A stretch of DNA of 64,000 nucleotides from Leifsonia shinshuensis (GTDB taxonomy: Bacteria > Actinomycetota > Actinomycetes > Actinomycetales > Microbacteriaceae). Both the position numbers and the translations under genes were made by a program. The first letter of the stretch is position 1. The number at the start of each line of letters is the position of its first letter. The stretch lies in contig NZ_JAVDVK010000001.1 of NCBI RefSeq assembly GCF_031456835.1, forward strand, positions 2,232,001 to 2,296,000. The letters are read 5' to 3'. Below are positions 4,386 to 44,110 of this stretch, piece after piece. The notes below the pieces were generated by a model that was not told the origin of the DNA, searched no databases, and was given only the letters and a program-made list of their open reading frames with translations.

Positions 4386-6158
4386 TCAGTCGGTGACCGG
4401 CGCGGCGTGGATGCCGTGGGGCGGTTCCTCGCCGGGGGCGACGTCCGTCGCGGGCGGGACGGGGGCGGCGTGCGAGCCGCGCGGCGTCGCATCCACGGGG
4501 ACCGGTGCCGCGTGCGCACCGTGCGTCGGCCCGGTCGCCTCGTCGGCCGTGCTCGCAGCGCCGGACTGCACCGCGCCGACCCCGGCCGGCTCGGCCGCGC
4601 CGGCACCCGCACCAGCGGCACCAGCACCGGCCGTACCAGCACCCGCGCCAGCGGCACCCGCACCCGCACCCGCACCCGCCGGCGCTCCGGCGCCCCAGGC
4701 GCGCGGCTTCGGGCGCTCCCACCAGATCACGATCAGCGCGCCGAGGAAGGCGACCGCCGCGGGGAGCAGCAGCGCCTCCGACATCGCCTGCGTGAAGCCG
4801 GCGTGCAGGAACTGCGGCAGCTCGGTGCCCGAGGTCGCCGCGCCGGCGTTGGCCGCCCCGCCCGGCGCCTTGGGCAGGTCGACGGCGAGCCGGCTCTCGA
4901 TCAGGGCGGCGATCGAGGCGCTTCCGAGCACCGCGCCGATCTGGCGCGTCGTGTTGAAGACGCCCGAGCCGGCGCCCGCCTGGTTCATCGGCAGGTTGCG
5001 CGTCGCCGTGGTGGAGATCGGTCCCCACACGCCCGACATCGCGATGCCCAGCAGCGAGCTCGGGATGAGCAGCAGCCAGATGTTGACGTCCGGCGACAGC
5101 ATCCGCGAGTACAGGAACAGCGAGAAGGAGAACAGCACCAGCGCGGGCGTGGTGATGTTGCGCGGGTTCACCCGGTCGATCAGGCGGCCGACGAACGGGG
5201 CCAGCACACCGGACAGCACGGCCGTGGGGGCGAGCATCAGCGCCGACTCGGTCGGGGTCAGTCCCCGGACGGTCTGGAAGTAGAACACGAGCGGCAGCGC
5301 CATGCAGGTCACCGCGAAGCCGACGGTCGTGATGGCGCCGTTCGCGAGCGAGAAGTTGCGGTCGCGGAATAGCGGCAGCGGGAGCAGCGGCTCCTTCTTG
5401 TTGACGGCCTGCCAGACGATGAAGGCGGCGAGCACGACGATCCCCGAGATGATCAGGCCCCACACCGAGATCGGTCCCCAGATGACGCCCCAGTCGTAGG
5501 TGCCGCCCTCCTGGATGCCGAACACCAGCAGGAACATGCCGACAGCCGAGAGGACCACGCCGAGGATGTCGAAGCTGTGGGTGTGCGTCGGCAGCTTGGG
5601 CACGAGCCGCACCGCGAGGATGAACGCGACGATGCCGACCGGCACGTTGATGAAGAAGATCCACTCCCAGCCGAGGGTGTCGACGAGGATGCCGCCGAGC
5701 AGCGGGCCGACCAGCGTCGCCACACCGGCGACCGCGCCCCAGAGGCCCATGGCCGCACCACGGCGGTCCGGCGGGAAGATCCGCGTGATGACCGCCATCG
5801 TCTGCGGCGTCATGAGCGCCGCACCGAGGCCCTGCACGACGCGGGCCGCGATCAGGATGCCGATGTGCCCGGCGAACCCGCACCAGGCGGAGGCGCCCGT
5901 GAAGACCACAAGGCCGATCAGGTAGATGTTCTTCGGCCCGAAGCGGTCGCCGAGACGACCGGTGATGAGCAGCGGCACGGCATAGGCGAGCAGGTAGGCG
6001 CTCGTCACCCAGATGACGGCGTTGTAGTCGGTCCCGAGGTCGAGACCCTTCATGATCGACGGGTTGGCGACCGACACGATGGTGGTGTCGATCAGGATCA
6101 TGAAGAACCCGATGACCAGCGCCCAGAGGGCAGGCCACGGCTTCAGTACGCGTTCCAT
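4386..6158 (-). CDS. MFS transporter, DHA2 family, with Ala/Gly/His-rich C-terminal tail
   Basis: 590 aa from the ATG complementary to 6156-6158 (MERVLKPWPALWALV). Fourteen helices fill residues 10-500; motif A appears as GRLGDRFGPK and helix 1 has MILIDTTIVSVANPS, as in EmrB/QacA exporters. After the last helix and WWERPKPRAWG, a tail of about 85 residues is almost only Ala/Gly/Pro and contains three HAAPV units. The tail matches GGCACC-type DNA repeats near 4596-4686 and probably arose by slippage. The PadR gene is 31 bp upstream on the same strand, so the two form an operon and the pump is probably PadR-controlled. Confidence 0.9.
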   Translation of the reverse strand: MERVLKPWPALWALVIGFFMILIDTTIVSVANPSIMKGLDLGTDYNAVIWVTSAYLLAYAVPLLITGRLGDRFGPKNIYLIGLVVFTGASAWCGFAGHIGILIAARVVQGLGAALMTPQTMAVITRIFPPDRRGAAMGLWGAVAGVATLVGPLLGGILVDTLGWEWIFFINVPVGIVAFILAVRLVPKLPTHTHSFDILGVVLSAVGMFLLVFGIQEGGTYDWGVIWGPISVWGLIISGIVVLAAFIVWQAVNKKEPLLPLPLFRDRNFSLANGAITTVGFAVTCMALPLVFYFQTVRGLTPTESALMLAPTAVLSGVLAPFVGRLIDRVNPRNITTPALVLFSFSLFLYSRMLSPDVNIWLLLIPSSLLGIAMSGVWGPISTTATRNLPMNQAGAGSGVFNTTRQIGAVLGSASIAALIESRLAVDLPKAPGGAANAGAATSGTELPQFLHAGFTQAMSEALLLPAAVAFLGALIVIWWERPKPRAWGAGAPAGAGAGAGAAGAGAGTAGAGAAGAGAGAAEPAGVGAVQSGAASTADEATGPTHGAHAAPVPVDATPRGSHAAPVPPATDVAPGEEPPHGIHAAPVTD

Positions 6159-6189
6159 GTCACGTTCTTCCTGTTGAGAGCGGTGTCGC

Positions 6190-6768
6190 TCAGTGCTTCT
6201 CCTCGACCCAGGAGATCGCTCCCGACTCGAGGTCGTCGATGAGGGCTTCGAGCGTGGCCACATCGGCCTCCGCCATCGCGCGCTGATAGCGCACATCCAC
6301 CCAGTACATCGCCGGGACGGACTTGGCCCGAATCGTTCGGATCCCCTCGTCGTAGGCGGCGATGTCGGCCCGGATGAGTCCGATGCGCTTGCGGAGCAGC
6401 GCGACAACGGAGCCGACCGGCAGGTTGTGCGCCTCCCCCAGCGCGAGGGGGAACTCCGGGTACTCGTTCACGGGCGTGCCGATGATCTCGGCGATGCGCT
6501 CACCCAGGGCGAGCGTGCCCTCCTCGGTGATCGCGTAGGTGGTGCGCTCGGGCCGGTTGCCTTCGCGCTCGGTGCCGGTCACCCGCACCAGGCCGTGCCG
6601 CGCCAGGCGGTCGACCGTGTGGTAGAGCGAGCCGGGCCGCACCTTCACCAGGCGGTCCTCGGAGCGGAGCATGAGGGTCTGGTACATCTCGTACGGATGC
6701 GACGGACCTTCGGCCAGCAGCGCGAGGGCGGCGACCGCGAGAGGGGTGAGGATGCGTGATTCAGCCAT
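6190..6768 (-). CDS. PadR family transcriptional regulator
   Basis: 192 aa from the ATG complementary to 6766-6768 (MAESRILTPLAVAALALLAE). Residues 10-90 form the PadR winged helix (HPYEMYQTLMLR, RPGSLYHTVDRLARHGLV, then a TYAITEEG wing); the C-terminal half is the helical Vir-type dimerisation region. PadR proteins repress transporter or detoxification genes and release on ligand binding. It lies just upstream of the exporter at 4386-6158, and a palindrome at 6786-6801 is well placed for autoregulation. Confidence 0.92.
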   Translation of the reverse strand: MAESRILTPLAVAALALLAEGPSHPYEMYQTLMLRSEDRLVKVRPGSLYHTVDRLARHGLVRVTGTEREGNRPERTTYAITEEGTLALGERIAEIIGTPVNEYPEFPLALGEAHNLPVGSVVALLRKRIGLIRADIAAYDEGIRTIRAKSVPAMYWVDVRYQRAMAEADVATLEALIDDLESGAISWVEEKH

Positions 6769-6785
6769 GAGTGTTCCGGTTTGAT

Positions 6786-6801
6786 TATTCCAGAAGGAAT
6801 A
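6786..6801. promoter_or_regulatory. PadR operator candidate
   Basis: Perfect inverted repeat TATTCC-AGAA-GGAATA, 17 bp upstream of the padR-like start, in the AT-richest part of this intergenic region. It probably overlaps the promoter of the padR-exporter operon. Confidence 0.6.
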
Positions 6802-6871
6802 TACCGCTCCGACCAACGCAGGTCAACCGATCTCCGCATCCTGCCGCTACGCTGCCTCGTGGAGGTGCGCG

Positions 6872-7009
6872 ATGACCAAACACCGACGCGAACGCGAGGC
6901 AGAAGCGCTGGAGTCCGAGGAGGCCGAGGCAGCGATCCGGGCGACCGAGACCGACGACACCTTCGTCGACGCGGACGAGGCGCTCGAAGCGGACGAAGAG
7001 CGGGACTGA
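6872..7009 (+). CDS. Small highly acidic protein (45 aa)
   Basis: ATG 6872 to TGA 7007-7009 encodes 45 residues: MTKHRREREAEALESEEAEA, then a run dominated by Glu, Asp and Ala. A GGAGG ribosome site lies 6 bp before the start (6861-6865), and the stop is 4 bp before the carbonic anhydrase start, so they are likely co-transcribed. No domain was recognised. The basic N-terminus followed by an acidic helix-prone body suggests a protein-interaction or structural role, but this is a guess. Confidence 0.5.
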   Translation: MTKHRREREAEALESEEAEAAIRATETDDTFVDADEALEADEERD

Positions 7010-7013
7010 CCGG

Positions 7014-7532
7014 ATGCTCTACGCGCTGCCCGGCGACCGGGCTCCGCAGGTGGACGCCGACGCCTGGGTGGCGCCCGGAGCGACCCTGGTCGGGGCGGTC
7101 ACGCTCGAGCCCGGGGCGAGCGTCTGGTACGGAGCGGTGGTGCGGGCGGACAACGCGCCGATCCGCATCGGCCGCGACTCCAACCTGCAGGACAATGTCT
7201 CCGCGCACGTCGACCCCGGCTTCCCGCTGACCGTCGGCGAGCGGGTCTCGGTCGGGCACAACGCCGTGCTGCACGGGTGCACGATCGAGGACGACGTCCT
7301 GGTCGGGATGAGCGCGACCGTGATGAACGGAGCGACGGTCGGCAGCGGCTCGCTCATCGCCGCGGGGGCCGTCGTCACGCAGGGCGCGGTCATCCCGCCG
7401 CGGTCACTCGTGGCGGGCGTCCCCGCGAAGGTGCGGCGCGAGCTCACCGACGACGAGCTGGACGGCATCCGCCGGAACGCCGCCGTGTACCTCGACAAGA
7501 CGGCGGAGCACCGGGACGCTCAGGCGCTCTAG
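7014..7532 (+). CDS. Gamma-carbonic anhydrase family protein (left-handed beta-helix)
   Basis: 172 aa, the usual length of the YrdA/PaaY/CaiE branch. Hexapeptide repeats form the beta-helix (GATLVGAVTLEPGASVWYGA, RADNAPIRIGRDSNLQDNV). Three metal-ligand histidines are in place: HVDPGFP, then GHNAVLHGCTIED with two. Members are trimeric zinc or iron proteins; some hydrate CO2, others bind CoA thioesters. Start ATG 7014 follows the small acidic gene by 4 bp. Confidence 0.9.
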   Translation: MLYALPGDRAPQVDADAWVAPGATLVGAVTLEPGASVWYGAVVRADNAPIRIGRDSNLQDNVSAHVDPGFPLTVGERVSVGHNAVLHGCTIEDDVLVGMSATVMNGATVGSGSLIAAGAVVTQGAVIPPRSLVAGVPAKVRRELTDDELDGIRRNAAVYLDKTAEHRDAQAL

Positions 7533-7565
7533 CCGGGCACCGCGACCTTGCGCTGCGACCGGTCG

Positions 7566-8168
7566 TCAGCCGTCGAGCATCGCCCGGTTGAGGGCGAGCA
7601 ACTGCTCCGTGAACATGCGGGCGCCCCCCTGCGCGGGGTGCCGCACCGCGGGCGCTTCGATCCCCGCCTCGGCGAGCGCACCCTGCGCCTTGCGCCCTAC
7701 GGCGACGATGGTCTCGATGCCGAGCGCGCGGATCAGCTCCTCGGCCACCGGGGCGCCGGCGCGCACCTCGGACGAGCGCGGGGTCCGATTGGTCAGCGGC
7801 CGTCCCGCGACGAACGGATGGTGCGGGTACACCGGCCAGGAGAGCGGGAGCGGACCGCGCCAGGCGCTCATCTTCTCCCAGAAGACGCGGCTCGACGCCT
7901 CCCAGGGCGCCTGCGGCTGAGCCGGCAGCTCGAGCCCCGGCAGCACGCCGGCATCCACCTCGCGCACCGAGGTGAAGGGCACGCCGGTGACGGTCATCCC
8001 GCGCCAGCCGGGAGCCTCGCCGAGCAGCAGGATGGGCGCGTGCGGCGTCTCCAGGTAGCGGCGCAGGTTGCGTTCGCGGAGCCGGCCGAGCTCGTCGAAG
8101 CCGAACAGCAGCTCGGCGTCGTCCGGGGCCGGGACCTCCCGGATCAGGTCGAAGAAGCGGTCGAGCAT
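7566..8168 (-). CDS. Uracil-DNA glycosylase-like protein
   Basis: 200 aa. GEAPGWRGMTVTGVPFTS (about residues 51-68) matches the first conserved loop of UDG-superfamily proteins, where the water-activating residue and the uracil-shielding aromatic lie, and RHPAQGGA near the C-terminus occupies the position of the HPS leucine-loop motif. No Fe-S cysteine set is seen, so it is not a typical family-4 enzyme. It may excise uracil or another damaged base; classification below superfamily level is uncertain. It is convergent with the carbonic anhydrase gene. Confidence 0.7.
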   Translation of the reverse strand: MLDRFFDLIREVPAPDDAELLFGFDELGRLRERNLRRYLETPHAPILLLGEAPGWRGMTVTGVPFTSVREVDAGVLPGLELPAQPQAPWEASSRVFWEKMSAWRGPLPLSWPVYPHHPFVAGRPLTNRTPRSSEVRAGAPVAEELIRALGIETIVAVGRKAQGALAEAGIEAPAVRHPAQGGARMFTEQLLALNRAMLDG

Positions 8169-8177
8169 CCACCCAGG

Positions 8178-9341
8178 CTACGGCCGCACCGCCACCCGGG
8201 GGTACGCGGCGGACGCGAGCGCCCGATCCACCTCGGCGAGCGGGAATGTCTCGCCGACCTGCTCCGCGAACGGGTACCGCTGCCAGGCGGAGGCGAGGAA
8301 CCGCACGGCCTGCTCCAGGTGCCGCGGTGCGTAGTTGTGGACGCCGCGGATCGTGAGCAGGCGGCGCACGAGCTGCTCGGGGGCGACCGCGAGGTCCGGC
8401 CCGGGCGAGACGGAACCGACCAGGACGAGGACTCCGCCGATATCCAGGCCGTCGAGCAGGGTCCGCACGGCCGCCGGGTTCCCGGAGAGCTCCAGGGCGG
8501 CGACCGGAGCCGCGCCCCGGCCGCCGGCCTTCGCCAGCACTGTCGGCAGTGAGGTGGCGTGGTCCGCGCCCGGGCTGGGGTCGGCCACGCCCACCGCGCC
8601 GAACGCGAGCGCCGCCTCCCGGCGTTGCGGGATGGGGTCGCTCACCACGACCCGCGCGCCCGCATCCGTGGCCATCGCGGCGGCGGTGAGTCCCATCATC
8701 CCGGCTCCGGCGATGAGCACTAGTGCGCCGTCGAGCGGGACGATCGCCTCGGCGGCCTCCACGGCGGCGGCGACCGTCGCCGTCGCGCAGGAGGCCGGCG
8801 CGAGCACCACGGCCGGGATGTCCTCCGGCACCCGCACCAGTGGCGTGCCGTCGAGGATGTGCGCGTGCGTCGCGAACCCGCCCGACAGCTCCCAGCCCCT
8901 GCGCATCCGCTCGTGGCCGTACTTCTGCAGGTTCGAGCACCTCTGCGGCAGGCCGCGGCGGCAGCGCGCGCAGCGCCCGCACGGGACGGCCACCGACCAC
9001 ACGACGCGCTCCCCCAGCTCCACCCGATGGCCGTCGGTCGTCTTGGCGCCGCCGCGGCCGAGCGCGATGACGCGGCCGACCTGCTCGTGCCCGAGCACGA
9101 GCGGCGCGGGCGCCTGCCGGTGACCGAGGACCGTGTGGATGTCGGAGCCGCACACCGTCGCGAGCTCCACCTGGGCGAGCACGTCACCCGGGGCGAGCCG
9201 CACGCCGGGGACCGCGACCGCCTCATGCGTGTGCCCCTCACCCGGCCACACCATCGCGGTGGCCGACGGGTACACGCTCACCCCCATCCCCAGGCGTGCC
9301 GGCGGTGCGACGACGCGCGGGGTGACCGCTTTGATCGTCAC
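8178..9341 (-). CDS. Zinc-dependent alcohol dehydrogenase, phosphonate-catabolism-associated type (TIGR03366-like)
   Basis: 387 aa from GTG at 9341. Medium-chain dehydrogenase features: catalytic zinc residues in VCGSDIHTV and GHEQVG, the structural-zinc four-cysteine lobe PCGRCARCRRGLPQRC, and a Rossmann GAGMMG. Sequence and company (HAD protein and FAD oxidoreductase upstream) match the trio named as putative phosphonate-catabolism genes. It would oxidise an alcohol or aldehyde released from a phosphonate with NAD. The start overlaps the HAD stop by 4 bp (GTGA), implying translational coupling. No phosphonate transporter or PhnW is in view. Confidence 0.85.
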   Translation of the reverse strand: MTIKAVTPRVVAPPARLGMGVSVYPSATAMVWPGEGHTHEAVAVPGVRLAPGDVLAQVELATVCGSDIHTVLGHRQAPAPLVLGHEQVGRVIALGRGGAKTTDGHRVELGERVVWSVAVPCGRCARCRRGLPQRCSNLQKYGHERMRRGWELSGGFATHAHILDGTPLVRVPEDIPAVVLAPASCATATVAAAVEAAEAIVPLDGALVLIAGAGMMGLTAAAMATDAGARVVVSDPIPQRREAALAFGAVGVADPSPGADHATSLPTVLAKAGGRGAAPVAALELSGNPAAVRTLLDGLDIGGVLVLVGSVSPGPDLAVAPEQLVRRLLTIRGVHNYAPRHLEQAVRFLASAWQRYPFAEQVGETFPLAEVDRALASAAYPRVAVRP

Positions 9342-10075
9342 CGGGCGTCGGCCCCCTCGGCACGACGGTCGGCAGCGTCGCCGGCGGCGCGGTCGGCGGC
9401 GGCGCGGTCGGCGGCGGCGCGGTCGGCATCCGTGTGCTCGTAGCCGAGCAGCTCGGGCAGGTCGGCGACGCTCGTCAGCACCGCGTCCGCGCCGGCCTCG
9501 AGGAGCTCGTCCTCGCCGTCCGTACCCGTCAGCACACCGACGACGAGCCCCGCGCCGGCGGCGATCCCCGCCGAGATGCCGTCCGCCGTGTCGTCGACCA
9601 CGACCATCCCCTCGACGCTGGAGGCGCCGGTGCGCAGCAGCGCGGTCAGCGGGAGATCGGGGAAGGGCTGCGCCCGGCCTGAGTCCGCCGGAGTGAGCAC
9701 CGCATCGGCGATCCCGGTCCAGCCGACGGCGTCCAGGAGGAGGTCGACGGCCGGACGCGGGGAGCCGCTCACGATCGCGACCTTCACGCCGGTGGCCCGC
9801 AGCCGGTGGATGAGGTCCTCCGTCCCGGGGAGGGCGCGCGGCGCTCCGGCGCCGTCGTCGAGCACCGTGGTGCCGGTCAGGCCGAGCACCACCAGCTCGA
9901 GGTCGGCGAGGTCGTCCTCGTCGCGGTCGTCGCCCTCGGGGAACTCGTCGGGCCTGTCGTCGAACTTGTCCCACTCCTCGTCGTCCGCGCCGGTCGCGTC
10001 CGCGTGGCGCGAGGCTGCGGCGTCGTCGATCGTCACGTCGTCGAACTCGCTGGTGATGCGTCCGTCGGGGGTCAT
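9338..10075 (-). CDS. Degenerate phosphonatase-like HAD protein (nucleophile and cap missing)
   Basis: 245 aa. Residues 60-215 align in order with the phosphonatase-like HAD family (TIGR03351): VVLGLTGTTV in place of the catalytic VVxDxAGTTV loop, VAIVSGSPR (motif II), GRAQPFPD, VVVDDTADGI (motif IV) and GAGLVVGVLTGT. The nucleophilic Asp is Gly65, and only about 12 residues separate motif I from the motif II region where the cap of about 70 residues should be. It also has an acidic N-terminal extension of about 58 residues and a C-terminal tail of ADRAA repeats encoded by a 12-bp tandem repeat near 9385-9430. Hydrolysis by the usual HAD mechanism looks impossible; a binding or scaffold role, or decay, is likely. 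Confidence 0.85.
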   Translation of the reverse strand: MTPDGRITSEFDDVTIDDAAASRHADATGADDEEWDKFDDRPDEFPEGDDRDEDDLADLELVVLGLTGTTVLDDGAGAPRALPGTEDLIHRLRATGVKVAIVSGSPRPAVDLLLDAVGWTGIADAVLTPADSGRAQPFPDLPLTALLRTGASSVEGMVVVDDTADGISAGIAAGAGLVVGVLTGTDGEDELLEAGADAVLTSVADLPELLGYEHTDADRAAADRAAADRAAGDAADRRAEGADAR

Positions 10076-10101
10076 GGTGGTGCCTTTCGTCGCGGTCGGG
10101 A

Positions 10102-11259
10102 CTAACGGGCGCGCGTGGCGCCGGCGGGGAGGAGGGAGCCGGGCGCGTCCGAGAACAGCTCGTCGACGACGCGGTCGGCGAGACCGAGCCCCGTCGTCAT
10201 CCCGATCCCCGCCGTCACGGAGACGACCCGCACATCCGGGGCCGGCGCCGCGACGAGGAAGTCGTCGGGCGCCGCCGCGTGGACGCCCTGCCAGCGTTCG
10301 CGGACCCGCAGAGGCACGGCGCCGAAGAGGTCGCGCGTCTGGTCGAGGAGTGCCTCGAAGGCGGCCTCCGGCTGGAAGGGCGAGGCGTCTTCGCTCTGGC
10401 GAGCCGTCGATCCGATGAGGAGCGAGCCGTCCGGGCGCTGGGCGAAGGAAACGTCCGCGCCCAGGGCCGCCAGGGCGGGCTGCTCCGCCACCAGGCGGTC
10501 GCGCAGGGCGCCGGCGCTCGGGGTCCGCGAGAACGCGGTCTGCTGGACGAGCGACCAGCCGGTCAGGAGGGGCGCGGAGAGCGGAGCGTCGAGTGCCGCA
10601 TCCACCAGCAGCATGTCGAGGCCGCGGCGCTGGATGCCGTGGGCATCCGCCATGCCGGGGAACAGCTGGTCGACATCCGCGTCAACGGCGACGACGACCG
10701 CGTCGGCGGCGACCCGGCCGCGGCTCGTGTGGACGGTGCCCGCCTCGACGGCGAGCGCTGTCGTGTGCCAGAAGAGGTCGACCCCGTGCGCGTCGAGCCA
10801 GCGGGCGATCGCCGGGGCGGCCTCGCGCGGGTCGACCTGCAGGTCGGACGGGAGGTACGCTCCCCCGATCGCCACACCGTCGGCCAGCGGTGCGCTCTCG
10901 CGCACCTGCGCAGGTCCGAAGAGTCGCACGTCGTGGCCGCCACGGCGCTCGCGGAACTCCTCCAGCACCGCCAGCTCGTCGGCGTTCCGTGCGACCACGA
11001 CCGTGCCGGACTCGCGCAGCCAGAAGCCGGCCTCCGGGGCGAGGGTCAGCCAGAGCTCGCGGGCGAGTTCGGCGTAGGCGCGGGCCTCGCCGTCCTGACC
11101 GGTGATGCAGAGGTGACCCGAGTTCCGGAGCGACGCTCCGTTGACCGTGGACGCCCGCTCGACGACGGCGACCGTGAGCCCGCGGCGGAGGGCCGCGACG
11201 GCGTGGCCGAGGCCGACGATGCCGGCGCCGACCACCGCGAGATCGTAGTGCCTGCCCAT
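10102..11259 (-). CDS. FAD-dependent oxidoreductase, DAO fold (TIGR03364-like, phosphonate-associated)
   Basis: 385 aa. An N-terminal GAGIVGLGHAVAALRRG dinucleotide-binding motif, the following acidic ERAS strand end, and a C-terminal VTAGIGMTTGLGLADRV FAD-binding segment define a D-amino-acid-oxidase-like flavoprotein. Family members occur beside phosphonatase-like HADs and alcohol dehydrogenases and are thought to oxidise aminophosphonates or related amines. It is first in a three-gene minus-strand operon and divergent from kynA. A possible -10 (TAGCCT on the minus strand) lies near 11345-11350. Confidence 0.85.
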   Translation of the reverse strand: MGRHYDLAVVGAGIVGLGHAVAALRRGLTVAVVERASTVNGASLRNSGHLCITGQDGEARAYAELARELWLTLAPEAGFWLRESGTVVVARNADELAVLEEFRERRGGHDVRLFGPAQVRESAPLADGVAIGGAYLPSDLQVDPREAAPAIARWLDAHGVDLFWHTTALAVEAGTVHTSRGRVAADAVVVAVDADVDQLFPGMADAHGIQRRGLDMLLVDAALDAPLSAPLLTGWSLVQQTAFSRTPSAGALRDRLVAEQPALAALGADVSFAQRPDGSLLIGSTARQSEDASPFQPEAAFEALLDQTRDLFGAVPLRVRERWQGVHAAAPDDFLVAAPAPDVRVVSVTAGIGMTTGLGLADRVVDELFSDAPGSLLPAGATRAR

Positions 11260-33475: not shown

Positions 33476-34756
33476 ATGGACTACCGCACCCAGCCCATCG
33501 ATCCCACCTCCGAACGTGACCTCTCCGCGGGCGGCCTGCGCCTCGCGCTGGTCGACACGACCGATGCGGCCGCCTTCGACGGTTGGATCCGCGCCGACTT
33601 CCGGGGCTTCCACAGCGGGCGCCCCAAGGAGGAGGTGCTGGAGGAGGCGCGCGGCTACCTCGGCGGCCGCCGCACCACCGGCGTGTACGACGACGCGATC
33701 CCGACGCGGGAACCGGTCGGCACGGTCAACTCGTGGGTCGCGCCGCTCACCGTCCCGGGCGGCGCCCGCGTCGACGCCTGGGCGATCAGCTCCGTCACCG
33801 TGGCGCCGACGCACCGGCGCCGCGGCATCGCCCGCGCCCTGCTCGGCGGCGAGCTGCGCACCGCGCACGCGCTCGGGGTTCCGCTCGCCATCCTCACCGT
33901 GTCCGAGTCGGTGATCTACGGACGCTGGGGCTTCGGTCCCGCGACGTACGCGACGGCCTGGACGGTCGACACGAAGCGCGTCCGCTGGGCGGGCGCCGAG
34001 ACCACCGGGCGCCTGTCGTTCACCGATCCCGAGGAGTACCGGGACACCGCCGAGCGGGTGCTCGACCGCGTGATGGCGGGCCGGCACGGCGAGATCGGCC
34101 TGGAGACCTACCTGGCCCACCGCCTGACCGGACCGCTGAAGGGCAACACCGAAGCGGACCAGTACCGCCTGGTGCGCTACGACTCGCCGTCCGGCGAGCC
34201 GGAGGGGTTCGTGTCGTACACGGTCAAGGGCGACGACGACTTCACGCGCCACACGGTGGACGTCAGCTACCTGGCGGCGGCCACCGACGAGGCGCTCACC
34301 GCCCTGTGGCGCTACCTGCTGGAGCTCGACCTGGTGGCCAGCGTGAAGGTCTGGACGCGCGGCGTCGACGAGCCGCTGCCCGCGCTGGTCTCCGACATCC
34401 GCGGCGCCCAGGTCACCGCGGTCGAGGACCACCTGTGGGTGCGCATCCTCGACGTCCCGGCGGCGCTGCAGGCGCGGACATACGAGGGCGACGGCTCGAT
34501 CGTGCTCGAGGTGGCCGACGACCTCGGCATGGCCGGCGGCCGCTACCGCCTGACGGTGACGGACGGCCGCGCCGAGGTCGCCACCACCGAGGACGACGCG
34601 GACGTGACCCTGCCCGTGGCCTCGCTGGGCAGCGTGTACCTCGGCCACGACACGGCCCGGGCGCTCGCGCTGGCCGGCCGCATCCAGGGCGACGCCGAGG
34701 CGCTCGATCGGCTGTTCCGCACGGCGGTGCCCCCGCGCCTCAGCACCTGGTTCTGA
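33476..34756 (+). CDS. Eis-like GNAT N-acetyltransferase with SCP2 domain
   Basis: 426 aa, the length and order of mycobacterial Eis: two GNAT folds (about 15-160 and 170-300) and a C-terminal sterol-carrier-like domain. Acetyl-CoA loop: VTVAPTHRRRGIARALL. ESVIYGRWGFGPAT carries the tyrosine that acts as general acid in Eis, and the chain ends in STWF, supplying the free C-terminal Phe carboxylate used as base. Eis proteins acetylate aminoglycosides and lysines; the native substrate here is unknown. TACGGT ends 6 nt before ATG (leaderless). Confidence 0.9.
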   Translation: MDYRTQPIDPTSERDLSAGGLRLALVDTTDAAAFDGWIRADFRGFHSGRPKEEVLEEARGYLGGRRTTGVYDDAIPTREPVGTVNSWVAPLTVPGGARVDAWAISSVTVAPTHRRRGIARALLGGELRTAHALGVPLAILTVSESVIYGRWGFGPATYATAWTVDTKRVRWAGAETTGRLSFTDPEEYRDTAERVLDRVMAGRHGEIGLETYLAHRLTGPLKGNTEADQYRLVRYDSPSGEPEGFVSYTVKGDDDFTRHTVDVSYLAAATDEALTALWRYLLELDLVASVKVWTRGVDEPLPALVSDIRGAQVTAVEDHLWVRILDVPAALQARTYEGDGSIVLEVADDLGMAGGRYRLTVTDGRAEVATTEDDADVTLPVASLGSVYLGHDTARALALAGRIQGDAEALDRLFRTAVPPRLSTWF

Positions 34757-34768
34757 GGCCGGAGCGGC

Positions 34769-35031
34769 CCGAGCGCGTCCGCCTCAGTCGATCAGGTCGT
34801 GGCGCACCACGATCTGATCGCGGGCCGGGCCGACGCCGATCGCGGAGATGCGGGCGCCGGACATGCGCTCGAGGGCGAGCACGTAGTCCTGTGCGTTCTT
34901 CGGCAGGTCCTCGAAGGTGCGGGCGCCGCTGATGTCCTCGGTCCAGCCGGGGAACTCCTCGTAGATCGGCGTCGCGTGGTGGAAGTCGCTCTGCGAGGCC
35001 GGGACCTCGTCGTGGCGCGCGCCGTCCACGT
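34769..35031. repeat. Left direct repeat: copy of the purA 3' end
   Basis: 263 bp matching 42729-42991 in the same orientation at a constant offset of 7960 bp, with five mismatches (34774, 34817, 34832, 34922, 35019). It contains the last 82 codons of purA plus 15 bp after the stop. Identity ends abruptly at 35031. Confidence 0.95.
34784..35031 (-). pseudogene. purA: Truncated purA remnant (C-terminal part only)
   Basis: The frame encodes the last 82 residues of adenylosuccinate synthetase ([20 protein letters not shown] to the end) and breaks at 35031, where unrelated sequence begins. Only one of the five differences from intact purA within the repeat is non-synonymous (Val to Ala beside GxRHDEV). 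It lacks the P-loop and active site, has no start signal, and is the left scar of the purA duplication. Confidence 0.93.
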
Positions 35032-35072
35032 ATCAGCAAGGTGACACCACCCACGTGAACGCTCCCTCAGCC

Positions 35073-35921
35073 TCATTCGCTCCAAGTACTTAGATCGCCT
35101 ATGTCCTCGAGGATCGACCTCGCCATGGGATCTCCATGGTCGACGGCTCGCTGGAGCCACTTGCGGGCGGGGTCTTCCTCGCCTTCCCGGAGCAGTTCGA
35201 TTCCAAGATTTGTCATGGCGTAGGCGTCGCCCAATCGGGACGCTTGCTCATAGAGCACTTTCCCTTCCGCGGCCCTGCCGTGGTCGCACAGGTAGTTCGC
35301 AAGCGGCACCATGCTCTCGACCTCTCCGCGATCCACGCCGTAGCGAAGCACGATAAGAGCTTCGTCGCTGCGCTTGCGGTTCAGGAGGAGCATCGCCAGG
35401 CTGGCACGTGCCCGCGGGTCTGCATCAACAGCCTGTCGAAGCAGCGGTTCCGCTTCGACGTATCGGCCCTCCTCCTCGAGAAGGATTCCGAGTTCCCCAG
35501 CTACATGCTGCTTCAAGGACGGAGCACTTTGCACGCTTCTCAGCAGCCCGATGGCACGGCGCCTCTGGCCCTCCTCAGCCAGATCCAGCGCTCGATTGAA
35601 CACCGCCTGCGGATTACCTCGAGCGATCAACGACTCATAGAGAGAAGTAGCGTCGGCGTCCCCTCGTTCGGCCAGCACCACGGCGAGATTGACTGCGGCC
35701 TCTTCATCACCAGCCTGATTCCACGCGGATCTGTAAGCAATTTCAGCTTCGCGATCGCGGTGAAGGGCCCTGAAGCTGTTCCCGATGTTGAGGCCCACCC
35801 ACGTCGCCCCGAGGCGCTCGGCCTCTCGGAAACGTGCAATCGCCTCCTCATGAGAGCCCGCGGCCGCAAGAGCGTTGCCGTCATCCACCAAAGCTTGTGC
35901 CGTGCGATCGTCGTCATTCAT
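35073..35921 (-). CDS. TPR/Sel1-like repeat protein, putative immunity partner of the Rhs protein
   Basis: 282 aa made of about eight helical-hairpin repeats of 34-36 residues ([60 protein letters not shown]). There is no signal peptide, so it is cytoplasmic. Its ATG overlaps the Rhs stop codon (ATGA), so it is translated from the same message. The gene after an Rhs C-terminus usually encodes the cognate immunity protein; that role here is inferred from position. GC is lower than in neighbours, consistent with transfer. Confidence 0.8.
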
Positions 35922-38900
35922 TTTCGCCTCTTGTTCGGGTTTACGATTCGCTTGCCGCCACCGTGACTCTGCGCCTTCGTATGCTTATCCCGCTTGCTCT
36001 TTGCCTTACTTGTATCGTGTCCCTTACGCTCCGCGTTCTTGGCGGGAGCGCGCTTCTTGTGGGACATCTCCATTGTCCCGCTGCTGCGGTTCGCCTGCTT
36101 GACGGCAAGTGAGGTGAGATAGACAGCGCCGACGACCACGACCGCGGCGAGAAGTGCCCAACCGACCGGATTCCACGACATCGTTGCTCCCGCCGCCACC
36201 AAGGGGAGCAGGAATGCGAACTGCCCGTTGAGGTCGAACTCGTTGATGGGGTCGTCGGGGTAGACGTAGTCGTTGGGCGTCCCTCCCTCAACGGGGTCGG
36301 TGGAGAGGAACCGTCCCAGGGCGGGAACATAGACCCGCGCACCCATTTCGATGAAGGGTGTGCCGGTGCCATGCTCGTAGATCTTCTGGTGCTGGCCGAC
36401 CCACGCGTTTGACGTGATCGGACTGGACGTATTGTCGGGAGCGGCATTTCCGGATGACACCGTGCCGATTCGTCCGGTGATCGGGTCGAGGGGTTGGCCG
36501 TACGGGTCGTAGAGGTACGTGCCTCCCGTCCTCTCGCCTGCGGCTCCCGCTGTGGCGACGACATCCGAGTGCAGGTTCGGGTACGACCACACCGGGTCGC
36601 CGTCCACGGGGCGAGTCAGCACGACTCCGCCCGCCAGGGCGAGGGTCGTCCTGCGAAGAACCTTACGGTCGTTCAGTTCGGCCACGGGTGCGTCGCCGGT
36701 TCCGGCGTAGACATACCAGGTCACATCGGAGGCGCCGGAGGAGGACGTGGTGGTGCGACTGATGATGCGGTCGAGCGCGTCTCGGGCGTAGCTGACTCTC
36801 GAACCGTCATCTGATGTGGTCGAGATGTGACGATCCGTGGCATCGAAGGCGAGGGTCTGACCAGCCAGCCGGGTGGTGTTTCCATGAGCGTCGTAGGCCA
36901 GCGACGCGGCTGGGCCGACCAAGGTCAGCGGTGTCCCGTTCGCCGGGTCCGGGTCAGCGGGAGCGCCTGCGGTGAGTGTCCCCGTGAGACGGTCGGCGTT
37001 GTCATAGCAGTACGCGATCGTCCAGGCCGGCCCGCCGTCGAAGGAGTCACTCATCGTGGTGCGATTGCTATTCGCGCCTGCGGCGGGGTCGGCGCCACAG
37101 CCGCCGGAGACGCTGAAGCCGTAGTCCAATTCGTGCCGAGGTATCGAGGCGTGCACTAGCCGGCCTGCTGGGTCGAAGCGGTATGAGAAGTCGAAGGCAG
37201 CTTCCCCGTCGTTGATGGTGTCGTGAATCACTCGACCTGATTGCGAGCGCACAACGGTGTCGGTAAGAGTCGAGCCGTCGGCGAAGGTGATGCTGCCTGC
37301 AACGACCCGGCCGGCTGCGTCTCGTGCGTTCGCGATCGCTGTGCCATTCCCCGCGGACCCGGGTCCGGACGGGTAGGACACCGATACCGGCTCTCCGTGG
37401 TCGTACTGGATGTGAGCGATCACTGCGTCATCGACGGTGATAGTGAGCGGTTTGCCGTCGAGATCGTACGAATACGAGGTTGTCGTGCCTCCACCCTTCG
37501 GGTACTGGGTCTCGCTGCGGTCCACGAATCCGGCGATCGAATAGGTCGTCTTCGTGGTCGATCCGCTGGCATCTGTGTAGGAGATTGTTCGACCCAGCAT
37601 GTCGGTTTGAGTGGTGATGCGGCCCTCCGCATCCTCCACCCACGTCGTGAGGGGATCTCCGCCCACAGCACCGGTTTTTGTGTAGCTGGTGGAAACGGTG
37701 CGCGCTTTCGCGGCGCCCAACGCTGGAATGCTCCTCTTGGTTTCCCGTCCGCGTCCGTCGTAGGTTGTGCAGGTCCAGTCGGCGTCACCGGTCTGGCGTG
37801 TTCCGACCACGCGGCCCATGAGGTCGTAGGCTGTGTCGGTCGTGATCATGACGCCGCTGGAGTTGGCGGGGTCGGTGTGCCGGGCGAGCATTCCATATTG
37901 CGGTGTGGAACCAGGGAGCCCGCAGACCCCGGATCCCCACATCATCTGCAGCGTCTGCGCGTCTCCGTAGTAAGAGTTTGTGGTGGCGGAGTTAGCGGGG
38001 AGATTGCGGGCGACAGCACCGGGGAGCGCTGTGAACTGTTCGCGGAGGTAGCCGGATCCTTCTGGCTCGTAACCGTGCATGGTCGTCAAGTTGAGTCCCG
38101 AGGGGTCCGACGTCTCTGTGACCGGCATCCCATACCAGGGGGTGTTGCCGTAGCCAGTGCTGGTGCGCAGTCCCGTCACCTGGTCGGCAGTTGCCCTTGG
38201 CGCGCCAGCAGGAACGCTGTCGTCCGTCACCGTGGATGTCACCAGACCGTAGTCAGGCGTGAGCAGCGTGCCGGGGACCAGAGTGCGGGTGCTGCCTCCG
38301 GGCGCGATCCAGTAAAGGTTGAACACGGCCACTCCGGTGATCTGCCAATACTGGGCTCGGATACGCACGCTCTGCCCGGCAGCGACGGTCACCACGCCGT
38401 CGGGACTCCAGTGGGGGGCGCCGGGCGACGGGTCCGACATTGTGAGGATGTCGTCCAGCCATAGTTGGGTTCCGTCGTCGGCGTAGGTGGAGAGCTTGTA
38501 CGTTCCAGCCGTCGGGAAGGTAATCACGCCTGTCATACGTGCAGACCAGTTGATGCCCGGGACGCCGGTCGCTGGTGAGTTGCTGGCCCAGTCTTTGGAC
38601 ATTGTTCCATCGCTCGGTCCGATCCCGAGGGAGTACGCCTTCGGTTTGCCCGCGAAGGAGGGGTTGTCGAAGTACTGCACGTTGAGGCCGTGGAGATCCT
38701 CGTCGTACCCCGTGTGGGAGTGAGCGGGAGTGACCGGACACGCCCCCTCCGGCATACCGCTAGCGGCGAAGCATGACTGCGGAGCCGGGCCGTAGGTGTC
38801 GGTGAGCCGGTGGCGCACGTCGTACAGCCGGGTTGATGTCCGACCCTGCGGGTCGGTGAGCGAGATCGCCTGGTCGAAGACGTTCCATTCGGAGCGGCCC

Positions 38901-41900
38901 GTGAGACCTGACGCCGAACTGTCGGTGACCTGCTGCAGCGCGTCGTTGTAGGTGACGGTGCGTGCGTGACCGTTCGAGGCACCGTCGGTGGGGACGGTGA
39001 TGCCCTTCACGTCCACTGTGGTGCTGTGGTCGCCGTAGTTGTAGGTCTTGGCTGCCTGGGTGCCGCTGGTGACACCGTCTGGGGCGGGGAGGGTGACGGA
39101 TGTGACGCGCCCATCGCCGTCGTATCCGACCGTGGTTGCGGTCGTGGGCGAGGTCGCCAGCATCGCTCGCGCGGGGTCCGCAATCATCCATTCGTTGGCC
39201 AGCGCGTCACGAATCGTGGTCAGCCGGCCGGCCTTGTCGTAGGCAAACGTGGTCAGCTCAGGACCGGGGTCGAGGATGCCGGCGAGCTGACCGTTGTCGT
39301 TGTAGAGGATCTCGGTGTTGTCCCACCAGCCGGCGACGTGCCCGGGGTAGATGATGCGGCAGATCATTCCGGGCGGTGCCGCGGCGTACCCGGAGCGGAC
39401 CGCCGCACCCGACAGGTCGGAATCGGCAGCGGAGAGGCCGACCGATGCCGCCGAGTCCCCGGTGTACGCGAACCGCACCTCGCGGCCATATCCGCCACCG
39501 CTCGCCGACAGCGGGTCGCTGATCCGGTCCAGCTGCGCGGTGCCCGCCCTCCAGGACGGGATCGGGGAGGACGGTTTGCGGGTGTCCTCGATGGCCGAGA
39601 TGGACTTCACCACCCCGGTCGCGTCGAACACGTAGGCGGTGCCCGCCTCATCGGTGAGTGTGAAATTCCCTGACTTGTCGAGCGCGAGAACGCCGCTCTC
39701 GCCCGGCGGTGCCGCGTAGCCGTTCGCCGCGCCCAGGCCCGCCGCATTCGCAGTCTTCGTATAAGTGTGGGCCCCGCCCGCGGAATCGGTGAGAATGACA
39801 GCCGACTCCGTGATCTGCGCGCGCAGGTAGCTGTCGACGCCGGTGAGCGCGGTCGAAGAAGCCCATCCACCGGGAAGCACGGGGGCACTCGTGCTGAACC
39901 AGTCCGGCGGGACGACATACTCGCGCCCATCGATGTCGCGCACCCACAGTTCGATCCGAGAAGCGCCCGTACCCTCGAAATACTCGACGGTGATGGGCGT
40001 CGCGCCCGCCTTCAGTGCAGAAGCCGGCATCCAGTCGATGTGGTCCGCTTTGGACGCGGACCACAGGTCTGCGATCAGTTTGCCGTCGAGCTTGAGGCGA
40101 GCTCCGTCATCGCGGGTGAACCCGAAGGTGTAGTTCCCTGGCTTCGGCGGATTGATGAAACCGGTCCACTGGACGGTGTAGTAGTCGCTGGGGATCGCTG
40201 GCCCTGGCGAATCGAGTCCCCAGTTGAAGGATACCGACGCGTCCGTCCGCACCAGCTGAGGAGTGCGACCACCGAAAGTGAAGGCAGCGTTCCCACCGGG
40301 AGCTGGAGTCACGTCGAAGTAGCGCGCAGTGAGCCCCCGGTTGGACTGCTGCTGTGAGTTGTACGTGAACGACAGCCCCATTTCACCGCCGAGGGTGCGG
40401 ACGGTCGGCGACGAGAAGGATAGGTGCGCGTTGCCGTTGGCGAGGTTGACGGTCAGCGGGCCTGCCGTGTCGGTGGGAGCTGGCCCGGATTCGCCGATAC
40501 GGAGGTTGACGGTGAACGCCTTGGCCCAGAAAGGGAGATAGGTGGTGGCGCCGTCCTTGATCGAGACACCCCAGCGGTATCGGCCGCCGTCCTGCAACGT
40601 CCCGGCGGGAGGCGTCCATGTCGTGCGCGTCGTCCAGCCGGACGAGACGACCTGACCGGTGACGGCGTCAGCTCCCGTGGCGACCTGGAACTGGTACTGC
40701 GTTGCACCCGACTGCGACGAGACGGGGTCGATCGCGAAGGTGGGTGTCACAGTGGTGACGATCTGGTCGGCCGTCGGGGCCGCCGTGGCCGCATTGGGCG
40801 TGGGAGGAGGAATGGTGCTGAATCGCCAAGTGGCGCTTTCCCGCAGCGTGGAGGTGCCCAGCCAACCGTCGTAACCGTCCTTAACCTGTACCTTCCAGTA
40901 GTAGGTCTTGTTGCCCTGCAGAGCCGTCTGTGGCACCTTGACGCTGGGCTGGCTCGTCCAGCCGGAAGCCCAAGCCGTGCCGACGGACGGGTTCGGGTTC
41001 TCGGAGACGAGGAACTGGTAGATCAAACCCGTCGCACCCGGGTCCGTGGAGCCCGCAATGGCAAGGGTGGGGTTCACCGAGGAGGACCCGCCATTGGCCG
41101 GCGAGGGTGCCGTCAAGGTGCCCGCTGTGGGAAAGTCCTTGTACGTGATGTACATGGAAGTCTCGAGCCGCTTATAGGAGTAGATCCCGCCGCGGTCGTC
41201 TCCAGCGACCATCAGGTAGTTCCCGGCGGAACGCGCGTTCACCCAGGACGCGACGCGCTGCTCGAGGCCGCCGTCCTGGGCGAAGCCGTCTGCAGCGACA
41301 GGGAATGACGAGAGATGGTCGCCCACCCCGTAGTAGGAGAACGCCGTGGCATAGTGCACCCCACCCGGATACGCGTTGGTCGTTCCTTCGCCATTCACGA
41401 CGCCGTAGATGAAGGCATCCGTGATCTGCTTGCCGAAGAAGGCCTCGTAGTTGTAGTGAGTGATCGTCCGCCAGAACGTGTCTCCATTCGCGCGCGCGTT
41501 CCCCACCAACGTCCCCGTGTTCGTACGGGTGGCGCCGTCCGAACGGAAGGCGTGCACATCCTGGTTGTCCGACCATACGGACGGGTCCACGTAAACCGGA
41601 TAGGCGCGCTTTGCGTCGTTCAACCACGAGCGATCAGCATCGAGAGTGAGCCGCCACGTCTTCCCGGTGCGCTTGACGGCGACATCGACAGGGTGATCAT
41701 CCGGCTCTTTGACCCCGGCCTTCCCGGAGGAGTCCCACATGCGCGGCGCTGGCGTCACGAACACCACGTCGTCTGACTCATCGCAGTATTCGATGTCACC
41801 CGTGCGCGGGTTCTTGCTGAGCGTGAGACCCGGCGCATCCACCGTCCAGCTCCACGACGCCTTGCCTTTCACACCCGGTCGCGCCTTCAGTTTGAGCGTC

Positions 41901-42661
41901 TCTTTGACGCCCGCGTTCTCGACCGCGTACTCAGCGTCGGTGTCGTCTAGAACATCCCCGTAGACGACGTTGGATCGGTCGGCTTTCGACGCGAACGGGT
42001 TCAGATTGCGAACGAGCCGCGAATTGCGCGAACCCTGAAGGGTGAACCGTACCGTGTGACCGTCTTTGGTCACCGTCAGCGCGTCATCCGCGTCCGCGAA
42101 CTCCGAGAACGTCGGATGCAGGGGATGGTCGTCCACCACCCCACCGCCCAACCCGACCATGGACAACGAACCACTACCGTCGACCTCGGTCCGCACCGGT
42201 ACGAAGTCTCCGCGGCCATCCTTGACGTTCAGCGGATCCGTCGAGATCTGCTGCGTCTTGGTTCCGTCCGGGTTCTTCCAGGTCGTCGAGAACTCGTCGC
42301 GTCGATCGACAGTGGCGCCCTCCTCGGGACCCTGCGAGGTGCGCTTCTTGTGCGCGGGCGGGGTCGGAAGCGTCGCCTCCTCCCCGTCGGGGACAGGTTC
42401 CGGCCGAGGCGCGGACTCGAAGTCGCCGCTCGACGCCGATCCTTCGGGGGTGTCGAGAGGCTCCGACGCCTGCTGCGGCAGGGCGAGGATGTTCCGGGCA
42501 GCTGATTCCGGCTCTGCCGCCGCGGCAGGTTGGAGGTCGGAGGCGACCAGGGCGGTGGCTGCCACGATGCCGAGGGCCGCTGGGAGAAGACGCAAGTGCT
42601 TGAACACTCGCAGGAGCGTATGACGCGACACGTTGCAGTGTGAAATGTCTGGTGGCCACAA
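35918..42661 (-). CDS. Giant secreted Rhs/YD-repeat protein with two PA14 domains
   Basis: Up to 2247 aa. Start uncertain: ATG 42661, GTG 42631 and GTG 42607 are in frame and none has a good ribosome site. Order: signal peptide ([17 protein letters not shown], cut after AAAA near 49); disordered acidic region to about 120; N-terminal wall-protein region; DNRLRE-like domain (about 360-510); two fibronectin-like repeats (515-750); PA14 domain 1 (775-910); YD repeats; PA14 domain 2 (1325-1460); long YD-repeat shell (1480-2110); Rhs core boundary GRFLSTDP to NEFDLNG (2116-2146). The last 100 residues are the variable tip: two membrane helices and a very basic tail ([20 protein letters not shown]). 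It is probably an exported polymorphic toxin or surface adhesin. Confidence 0.92.
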
Positions 42662-42728
42662 TTACCCGCTATGGCCCCGCGGAATGCGCTCGCCGCTCGC
42701 CGGCCTGGGGCCACCTAACCCTCAGGCG

Positions 42729-42991
42729 CCGAGAGCGTCCGCCTCAGTCGATCAGGTCGTGGCGCACCACGATCTGGTCGCGGGCCGGGCCCACGCCGAT
42801 CGCGGAGATGCGGGCGCCGGACATGCGCTCGAGGGCGAGCACGTAGTCCTGTGCGTTCTTCGGCAGGTCCTCGAAGGTGCGCGCGCCGCTGATGTCCTCG
42901 GTCCAGCCGGGGAACTCCTCGTAGATCGGCGTCGCGTGGTGGAAGTCGCTCTGCGAGGCCGGGACCTCGTCGTGGCGCACGCCGTCCACGT
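42729..42991. repeat. Right direct repeat: 3' end of intact purA
   Basis: Partner of 34769-35031; here the sequence continues into the complete purA gene. The 67 bp between it and the Rhs start show no other feature. Confidence 0.95.
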
Positions 42992-44030
42992 CGTAGGCGA
43001 CCGCGACGGGGATGCGGTCGATGCCGGTCAGCGTGTCCAGCTTGGTGAGCACGAAGTCGGTGACGCCGTTGACGCGCGCCGTGTAGCGGGCGACCGGGGC
43101 GTCGTACCAGCCGGTGCGGCGCGGACGGCCGGTGGTGGTTCCGAACTCGAAGCCGCGCTCGCGCAGGAACTCGCCCCACTCGTCGAAGAGCTCGGTCGGG
43201 AACGGACCGGCACCGACGCGGGTGGTGTACGCCTTCACGATGCCGATCACGCGGTCGATGCGGTTGGGTCCGATGCCCGAACCGGTCGCGGCGCCGCCGG
43301 CGGTGGAGTTGGAGGAGGTGACGAACGGGTAGGTGCCGTGGTCGACATCCAGCATCGTCGCCTGACCGCCCTCGAAGAGCACGTACTTGCCGTCCTCCAG
43401 CGCCTGGTTGAGCAGCAGGGAGCTGTCGACCACCATCGGGCGCAGGCGCTCGGCGTACTCGAGCAGCTGCTCGACGACCTCGTCGACCGTGATCGCGCGG
43501 CGGTTGTAGACCTTCACGAGCAGGTGGTTCTTCTGGTCGAGGGCGCCCTCGACCTTCTGCCGCAGGATGTTCTCGTCGAAGAGGTCCTGGATGCGGATGC
43601 CCACCCGGTTGATCTTGTCGGCGTAGGTCGGGCCGATGCCGCGGCCGGTGGTGCCGATCTGGCGCTTGCCGAGGAAGCGCTCCGTGACCTTGTCGATCGT
43701 GCGGTGGTACGAGGTGATGACGTGCGCGTTCGAGCTGACCTTGAGGCGGGAGACGTCGACGCCGCGGGCGATCAGCGCATCCAGCTCCTCGAACAGCACC
43801 TCGATGTCGACGACGACGCCGTTGGCGATGACCGGGGTGACGCCCTCGGTGAGGATGCCGGACGGCAGCAGGTGCAGGGCGTACTTCTCGTCGCCGACGA
43901 CGACGGTGTGGCCGGCGTTGTTGCCGCCGTTGAACTTGACCACGTAGTCGATGCGGCTCCCCAGGACGTCGGTCGCCTTGCCTTTGCCTTCGTCGCCCCA
44001 CTGGGCGCCGATGATCACGATCGCGGGCAC
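42744..44030 (-). CDS. purA: Adenylosuccinate synthetase
   Basis: 428 aa from GTG 44030, the standard length. It joins IMP and aspartate with GTP, the first committed step to AMP. Motifs: [14 protein letters not shown] (catalytic Asp and P-loop), [45 protein letters not shown] and the aspartate loop [14 protein letters not shown]. Upstream ATG 44069 is rejected because homology begins at [11 protein letters not shown]. The last 82 codons are duplicated at 34784-35031. A minus-strand -10 (TAGGAT, 44090-44095) lies beside the TetR operator. Confidence 0.97.
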
Positions 44031-44110
44031 GTGGATGTCCTCTCGGTGGATGGAACGCGTCGGCGCCACCCGGACGACCGTCGCACTCGATCCTATCGCG
44101 AGACACTAAG

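Follow-up and report, generated by a model that had tools for sequence, protein, structure and literature searches.

How did a toxin gene cassette come to lie beside purA in Leifsonia shinshuensis, with the gene itself left whole and a second copy of its 3′ end standing on the far side of the cassette? We addressed this question in a window of 64,000 nucleotides (the whole stretch of DNA that was analysed), which forms part of a genome assembled as one contig of 3,788,128 bases.

Two copies of the purA 3′ end bound a two-gene block

A repeat search, together with a scripted count of mismatches, identified two direct repeats of 263 nucleotides (34769-35031 and 42729-42991) that lie at an offset of 7960 and differ at 5 positions (258/263 identical, 98.1%), just as the initial annotation had claimed. 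This pair of purA ends is the sole direct repeat of at least 80 bp and at least 75% identity with a spacing of 3-16 kb in the 64-kb window, and no direct repeat of this class was found when the identical cut was applied to 12 other regions (198 kb, one with an Rhs gene). A chance repeat is ruled out by the extent of the match (263 bp at 98%) and by its being the only one of its class in the window. Across the whole genome, the purA end gives two long matches and one of 46 bp at 80%. The features of the locus are as follows.

33476..34756, plus strand: Eis-like acetyltransferase gene (Pfam), the native convergent neighbour of purA (neighbour in 19/27 congeners)
34769..35031, minus strand: left repeat copy, a purA 3′ fragment (codon 360 to the stop, plus 15 nt) joined to the Eis-like side
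35032..42728, no strand: inserted block of 7697 bp, with joints at 35031/35032 and 42728/42729 (0/27 congeners have a second purA end)
35073..35921, minus strand: TPR protein gene, 282 aa (ORF list and Pfam)
35918..42661, minus strand: Rhs-family toxin gene (ORF list and Pfam/NCBIfam profiles)
42729..42991, minus strand: right repeat copy, formed by the end of intact purA from codon 360 through its stop and the 15 nt that follow
42744..44069, minus strand: intact purA, 441 aa as listed (Pfam Adenylsucc_synt, 3.3e-181)

Pfam profiles and alignment bear out the earlier description of the right copy as part of an intact purA and of the left copy as a fragment, which breaks off sharply at 35031. 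The block between them holds exactly two genes, those for the Rhs and TPR proteins, and has the low GC content that had been ascribed to it: in 500-base steps, GC is 0.61-0.69 in the block, 0.66-0.71 in purA, and 0.68-0.76, mostly above 0.70, in the remainder of the 28-50 kb interval. Since purA, the Rhs gene, the TPR gene and the fragment all lie on the minus strand, the cassette is co-directional with purA and downstream of it. A scan for promoters and terminators returned counts that match those in shuffled sequences.

The block encodes an Rhs toxin and its probable immunity partner

As listed from a TTG, the Rhs gene codes for a protein of 2247 aa, and a GTG near 42631 would, judged by eye, suit a signal peptide better as its start. 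The protein possesses PA14 domains and an RHS_repeat match (7e-15, Pfam), followed by an Rhs_assc_core match of 38.6 bits (cut-off 32.5) at residues 2094-2147 and then a tip of about 100 residues; it thus combines the YD/RHS repeats and Rhs-associated core by which Rhs polymorphic toxins are recognised. The tip is also variable, as is typical of such toxins, in that two Leifsonia relatives with 69-71% overall identity carry a different one. No Pfam or NCBIfam family matched the tip at E 0.01, and its best relative (53%) was found in Cryobacterium sp. PH31-O1.

The TPR gene overlaps the Rhs gene by 4 bp. In Cryobacterium sp. PH31-O1, a TPR homologue (37.6% over 266 aa) lies 5 bp behind the Rhs gene with the related tip, so that a candidate cognate immunity gene is found behind the tip, as identified by co-occurrence only. 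Given this pairing of a related tip with a TPR homologue in Cryobacterium, we take the TPR protein as the probable immunity partner of the Rhs tip, which, by analogy with the Rhs family, would presumably harm neighbours that lack the TPR protein. A long repeat core, a variable tip and a small partner gene right behind it are shared with other Rhs and polymorphic toxin systems, in part as set out in an excerpt of PMC3482391 and in part as general background. The locus differs from such systems in having a TPR protein as the partner of the tip and in the bracketing of the whole cassette by copies of a neighbouring gene's end.

A number of related genes were observed elsewhere. The same genome possesses a second, distant Rhs gene (G000:C1:1937098-1943901, L085; about 41-42% identical), which forms one 2377-aa open frame and is without flanking repeats. 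The closest Rhs relative in the genus search (73%; L037 of genome G026, 4577-11008) lies 6.6 kb from purA, in a different gap of that gene neighbourhood, and is followed by part of a second tip region (2431-3033). In the Cryobacterium stretch (L188, 6875-15031), the Rhs frame lacks the protein's N-terminal part and starts 4 bp after a 1016-aa frame that by eye resembles a Tn3-type transposase. A frame homologous to the TPR protein (34% over 229 aa; L184, 5684-7360) was seen in a control region of genome G005, apart from any recognised Rhs gene. Finally, exact tandem copies of 92-110 bp were noted in Rhs tip regions on contigs of Leifsonia sp. Leaf336 (L083, 7229-7448 and 7849-8127; L086, 7554-7736 and 10445-10627), and these are possibly assembly artefacts.

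The purA fragment as a scar left by the insertion

A full match to the purA end was found once in each of 27 other genomes of the genus, further matches being short. In 19 of these 27 congeners, purA and the Eis-like gene are direct convergent neighbours with about 10-340 bp between their stops. Six have other genes between the two, none with a second purA end; these are MFS-like in two, Fic-like in three, and sigma-factor-like together with a repeat protein in one (here and below, the labels MFS, Fic, VOC, hydrolase and sigma-factor-like were assigned by eye). In the remaining 2/27 the Eis-like gene was not found within the 20-kb stretch. The gap between purA and the Eis-like gene in L036-L038 and L041-L043 carries unrelated genes, marking it as one with gene turnover.

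Because none of the 27 congeners has a second copy and 19 have purA and the Eis-like gene as direct neighbours, we take the purA fragment to be a scar of this insertion. The initial annotation had made the same suggestion, to be abandoned if island-free relatives carried the fragment beside the Eis-like gene; none of the 27 does, and a fragment that predates the island is rejected on the same count. The left copy runs on to the Eis-like gene, which preserves the native downstream joint; the right copy is continuous with the rest of purA. Judged from that downstream joint, the left copy would be the native purA end. With the left copy taken as native, the insert supplied a purA end and displaced the native one.

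Probable origin of the second purA end in the same or a very near species

The two copies are 98.1% identical, with one mismatch within the 15 nt past the stop, whereas the best match to the purA end among the 27 congeners is 94.8% over 249 bases and the congener sequence past the stop differs. Since the copies are closer to one another than either is to any congener (at most 94.8%), the second purA end would derive from the same species or one very near.

A local event, such as repair of a staggered break or template switching, might instead have inserted the cassette with duplication of a 263-bp segment of the resident gene, in which case the five differences would be of later date. Repair duplications are known, and copies this close could be explained without a donor allele. 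Against this, one of the copies is a fragment without function, and yet three of the four coding differences between them are synonymous, when about a quarter would be expected to be so under mere decay of one copy (P 0.04-0.07). In addition, both alleles of each of the four are found in some congener. Together, the synonymous bias and the presence of the alleles in congeners suggest two natural alleles rather than decay, and the evidence, which consists of four coding sites only, leans that way. We regard local duplication as quite unlikely.

Mobility enzymes, site reuse and possible vehicles

No integrase was found in the block by ORF list and Pfam, its two genes being the only ones present. 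Elsewhere in the genome there are eight matches to the Phage_integrase family, seven of them above the cut-off, the nearest lying about 170 kb from the block. The genome-wide search for mobility enzymes covered the Phage_integrase family alone; within that range, the earlier remark that no integrase was in sight holds.

In its anatomy, the locus equals prophage e14 in the icd gene of E. coli, where, according to an excerpt of PMC6379469, a gene end of 163 bp is displaced and the prophage provides a new one. In both, a housekeeping gene receives a new 3′ end from the insert, past which its native end persists as a duplicate, and e14 in icd is the closest anatomical precedent. They differ in that e14, as presented in that excerpt, is a site-specifically integrated prophage, whereas here there are two cargo genes, no integrase in the block and no recurrent use of the site. 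This likeness raises the possibility that the block is an integrative element, either an integrase-less remnant or one mobilised in trans, with the purA 3′ end as attachment site and a substitute end that displaced the native one. An integrase gene in the element, as expected of an e14/icd-type insertion, is lacking as far as the Phage_integrase family is concerned, and the nearest match of that family is distant. Repeated use of the site in relatives is likewise lacking: a doubled purA end was seen in 0/27 congeners and, in a survey of 199 family genomes (up to three candidates scored per genome), only in the present genome among the 187 with a purA-end match. Furthermore, no phage record matches the purA end, and the two copies resemble one another as closely as alleles of a single species do. 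We regard such an element as unlikely.

These data leave the purA 3′ end unsupported as a general integration hotspot. Of the earlier proposal that an element brings its own purA end and regenerates the gene on insertion, the second part agrees with the intact purA, and routine carriage of a purA end for integration finds no support in a doubled end in 1/187 genomes.

The cassette might also have arrived on a circle that carried a purA 3′ end and integrated by a single crossover (Campbell integration), with the reverse crossover excising it. This would yield the exact product without any illegitimate joint, and 263 bp of homology would be enough for it. However, the block holds no replication or transfer gene, and although matches to the cassette were found in seven plasmid records, their coverage of it is at most 21%. 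Matches to the purA end in the plasmid collection are at 75-81% only (five records, of which one bears a purA annotation at the matching place and four are unannotated there). Arrival on such a circle seems quite unlikely to us. More broadly, a plasmid or phage source is not supported by the comparisons of the cassette with plasmids and of the purA end with phages, the cassette itself having been compared with plasmids only.

Similar anatomy at other Rhs loci

We compared 95 Rhs stretches, of which 88 were kept after seven had been dropped as overlaps (one of the seven, L078 of genome G017, is probably a separate paralogue); 63 of the 88 have more than 1.5 kb on both sides. Close flanking repeats were found at 7/88: the window, L074, L211, L187, L199, L195 and L233. 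The cut that defines them (at least 60 bp and at least 80%, with gaps of at most 1.2 kb upstream and at most 2.4 kb downstream) was picked after the list had been viewed. At L073, L084, L087, L194, L235, L238 and L254, repeats are weaker, farther away or in tip sequence. Among 39 control regions of 20 kb (32 taken at round coordinates and seven fetched otherwise), four have a repeat at a looser cut, and one of these, in L170, reaches 80% (92 bp, with 16.2 kb between copies). That Rhs loci are enriched in flanking repeats is thus not established, as 7/88 against 0/39 is by estimate non-significant and the cut was chosen afterwards.

Two of these loci resemble the window in anatomy. At L074, in another Leifsonia genome (G010), an intact VOC-like gene stands on one side of an Rhs gene and a small membrane-protein-like gene, and a decayed copy of the VOC-like 3′ end (98 bp, 84%) stands on the other. 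The corresponding empty site is seen in genomes G008 and G016, in which the VOC-like gene is immediately followed by the next gene; of 22 other genomes that have the VOC-like gene, these 2 show the same downstream neighbour within the 1.5 kb examined. The other locus is L211 of Microbacterium sp. K24, where an Rhs gene and an overlapping small gene are flanked by an intact hydrolase-like gene and by a 94-bp duplicate (97%) of this gene's 5′ end and the region upstream of it. L073, in Leifsonia genome G021, is a possible further case, with a copy of a VOC-like 5′ end at 75% (84% to the gene of genome G019); about 1.85 kb separate the supposed neighbours in G019, so that no clean empty site is seen there.

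The occurrence of this anatomy at the 3′ end of one gene (L074) and the 5′ end of another (L211) fits general homology-anchored recombination better than an element dedicated to purA, and the variety of genes, gene ends and repeat lengths points away from a fixed site. That other cases lie at other genes, one of them at a 5′ end, also counts against an integrative element that attaches at the purA end. By contrast, Rhs islands beside tRNA-Gly ends (L187, L199 and L195) count in its favour. Boundaries of gene islands at tRNA ends are a usual mark of integrases. These islands, in Agromyces and Cellulomonas, are bounded by partial tRNA-Gly copies (at 9386-9669 and 18700-18983 in L187), and L187 and L199 have three tRNA-Gly copies each. 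At L233 the flanking repeat starts in a tRNA-Ala gene and contains an ORF that we take to be an integrase.

A model for homology-anchored insertion

We tentatively favour, at a little under an even chance, entry of the Rhs toxin-immunity cassette by homology-anchored recombination with an illegitimate second joint. Incoming DNA from the same or a very near species would have brought a purA 3′ end of its own, followed by the cassette. The donor and resident purA would have recombined by homology, joining the donor end and cassette to the resident gene. At its far end the cassette would have been joined to the resident purA without homology, at a point 263 bp short of where the shared sequence ends. 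This would have left the 3′ end of the resident gene as a fragment beside the Eis-like gene, with purA staying whole. Observed are the cassette, the duplication and its absence from the 27 congeners, the likeness of the two copies and the comparable anatomy at other genes; the donor, the form of its DNA, the order of the joints and the route of uptake are what we infer from this arrangement. The repeats could later recombine, with loss of the cassette and return of purA to its place beside the Eis-like gene, and excision of the cassette as a circle is possible.

We favour homology-anchored insertion because the anatomy occurs at different genes, at both gene ends and with different repeat lengths, and because there is no integrase in the block. 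Homology on one side of the insert, by which homology-facilitated illegitimate recombination is recognised, is present here in the form of the 263-bp purA end; on the opposite side such an event would be expected to show an illegitimate joint, which often has short microhomology. Several observations count against it: among 103 Rhs stretches (not all distinct) none holds purA at 1e-10, as a donor arrangement would; Rhs loci show no significant excess of flanking repeats over controls; and four coding sites are few. ComEC is present, but it is also found in E. coli and nine others of 14 control genomes and so is no proof of competence.

Homology-facilitated illegitimate recombination is described in the portion of PMC3240628 drawn on here. 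It has been proposed for effector-immunity modules of the V. cholerae T6SS in an excerpt of PMC5361080, which terms it rare and reports that the same mechanism has also been hypothesised for Rhs loci. There too, as far as that excerpt goes, a toxin-immunity module is gained in the absence of a mobility gene, through homology at just one of its flanks. In V. cholerae, however, the anchor is the module's own upstream region and old immunity genes remain (same excerpt of PMC5361080), whereas here the anchor is a neighbouring housekeeping gene and it is the duplicated end of this gene that remains. Among the literature matches listed, none concerned purA-end duplicates around Rhs genes, a weak negative.

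The locus thus offers a readable scar of the entry of a toxin-immunity pair beside an essential gene, with the gene intact and the insert free of an integrase. Rhs cassettes of Microbacteriaceae might more widely spread without mobility enzymes of their own, through homology with the gene next door, each jump dragging along a gene end as anchor, keeping the recipient gene whole and leaving a datable duplicated-end scar that permits loss of the cassette; we hold this wider reading to be possible but less likely than not. If such scars are general, the duplicated gene end could be used to date insertions and trace donors, and the movement of Rhs cassettes in Gram-positive bacteria would become testable through the comparison of strains.
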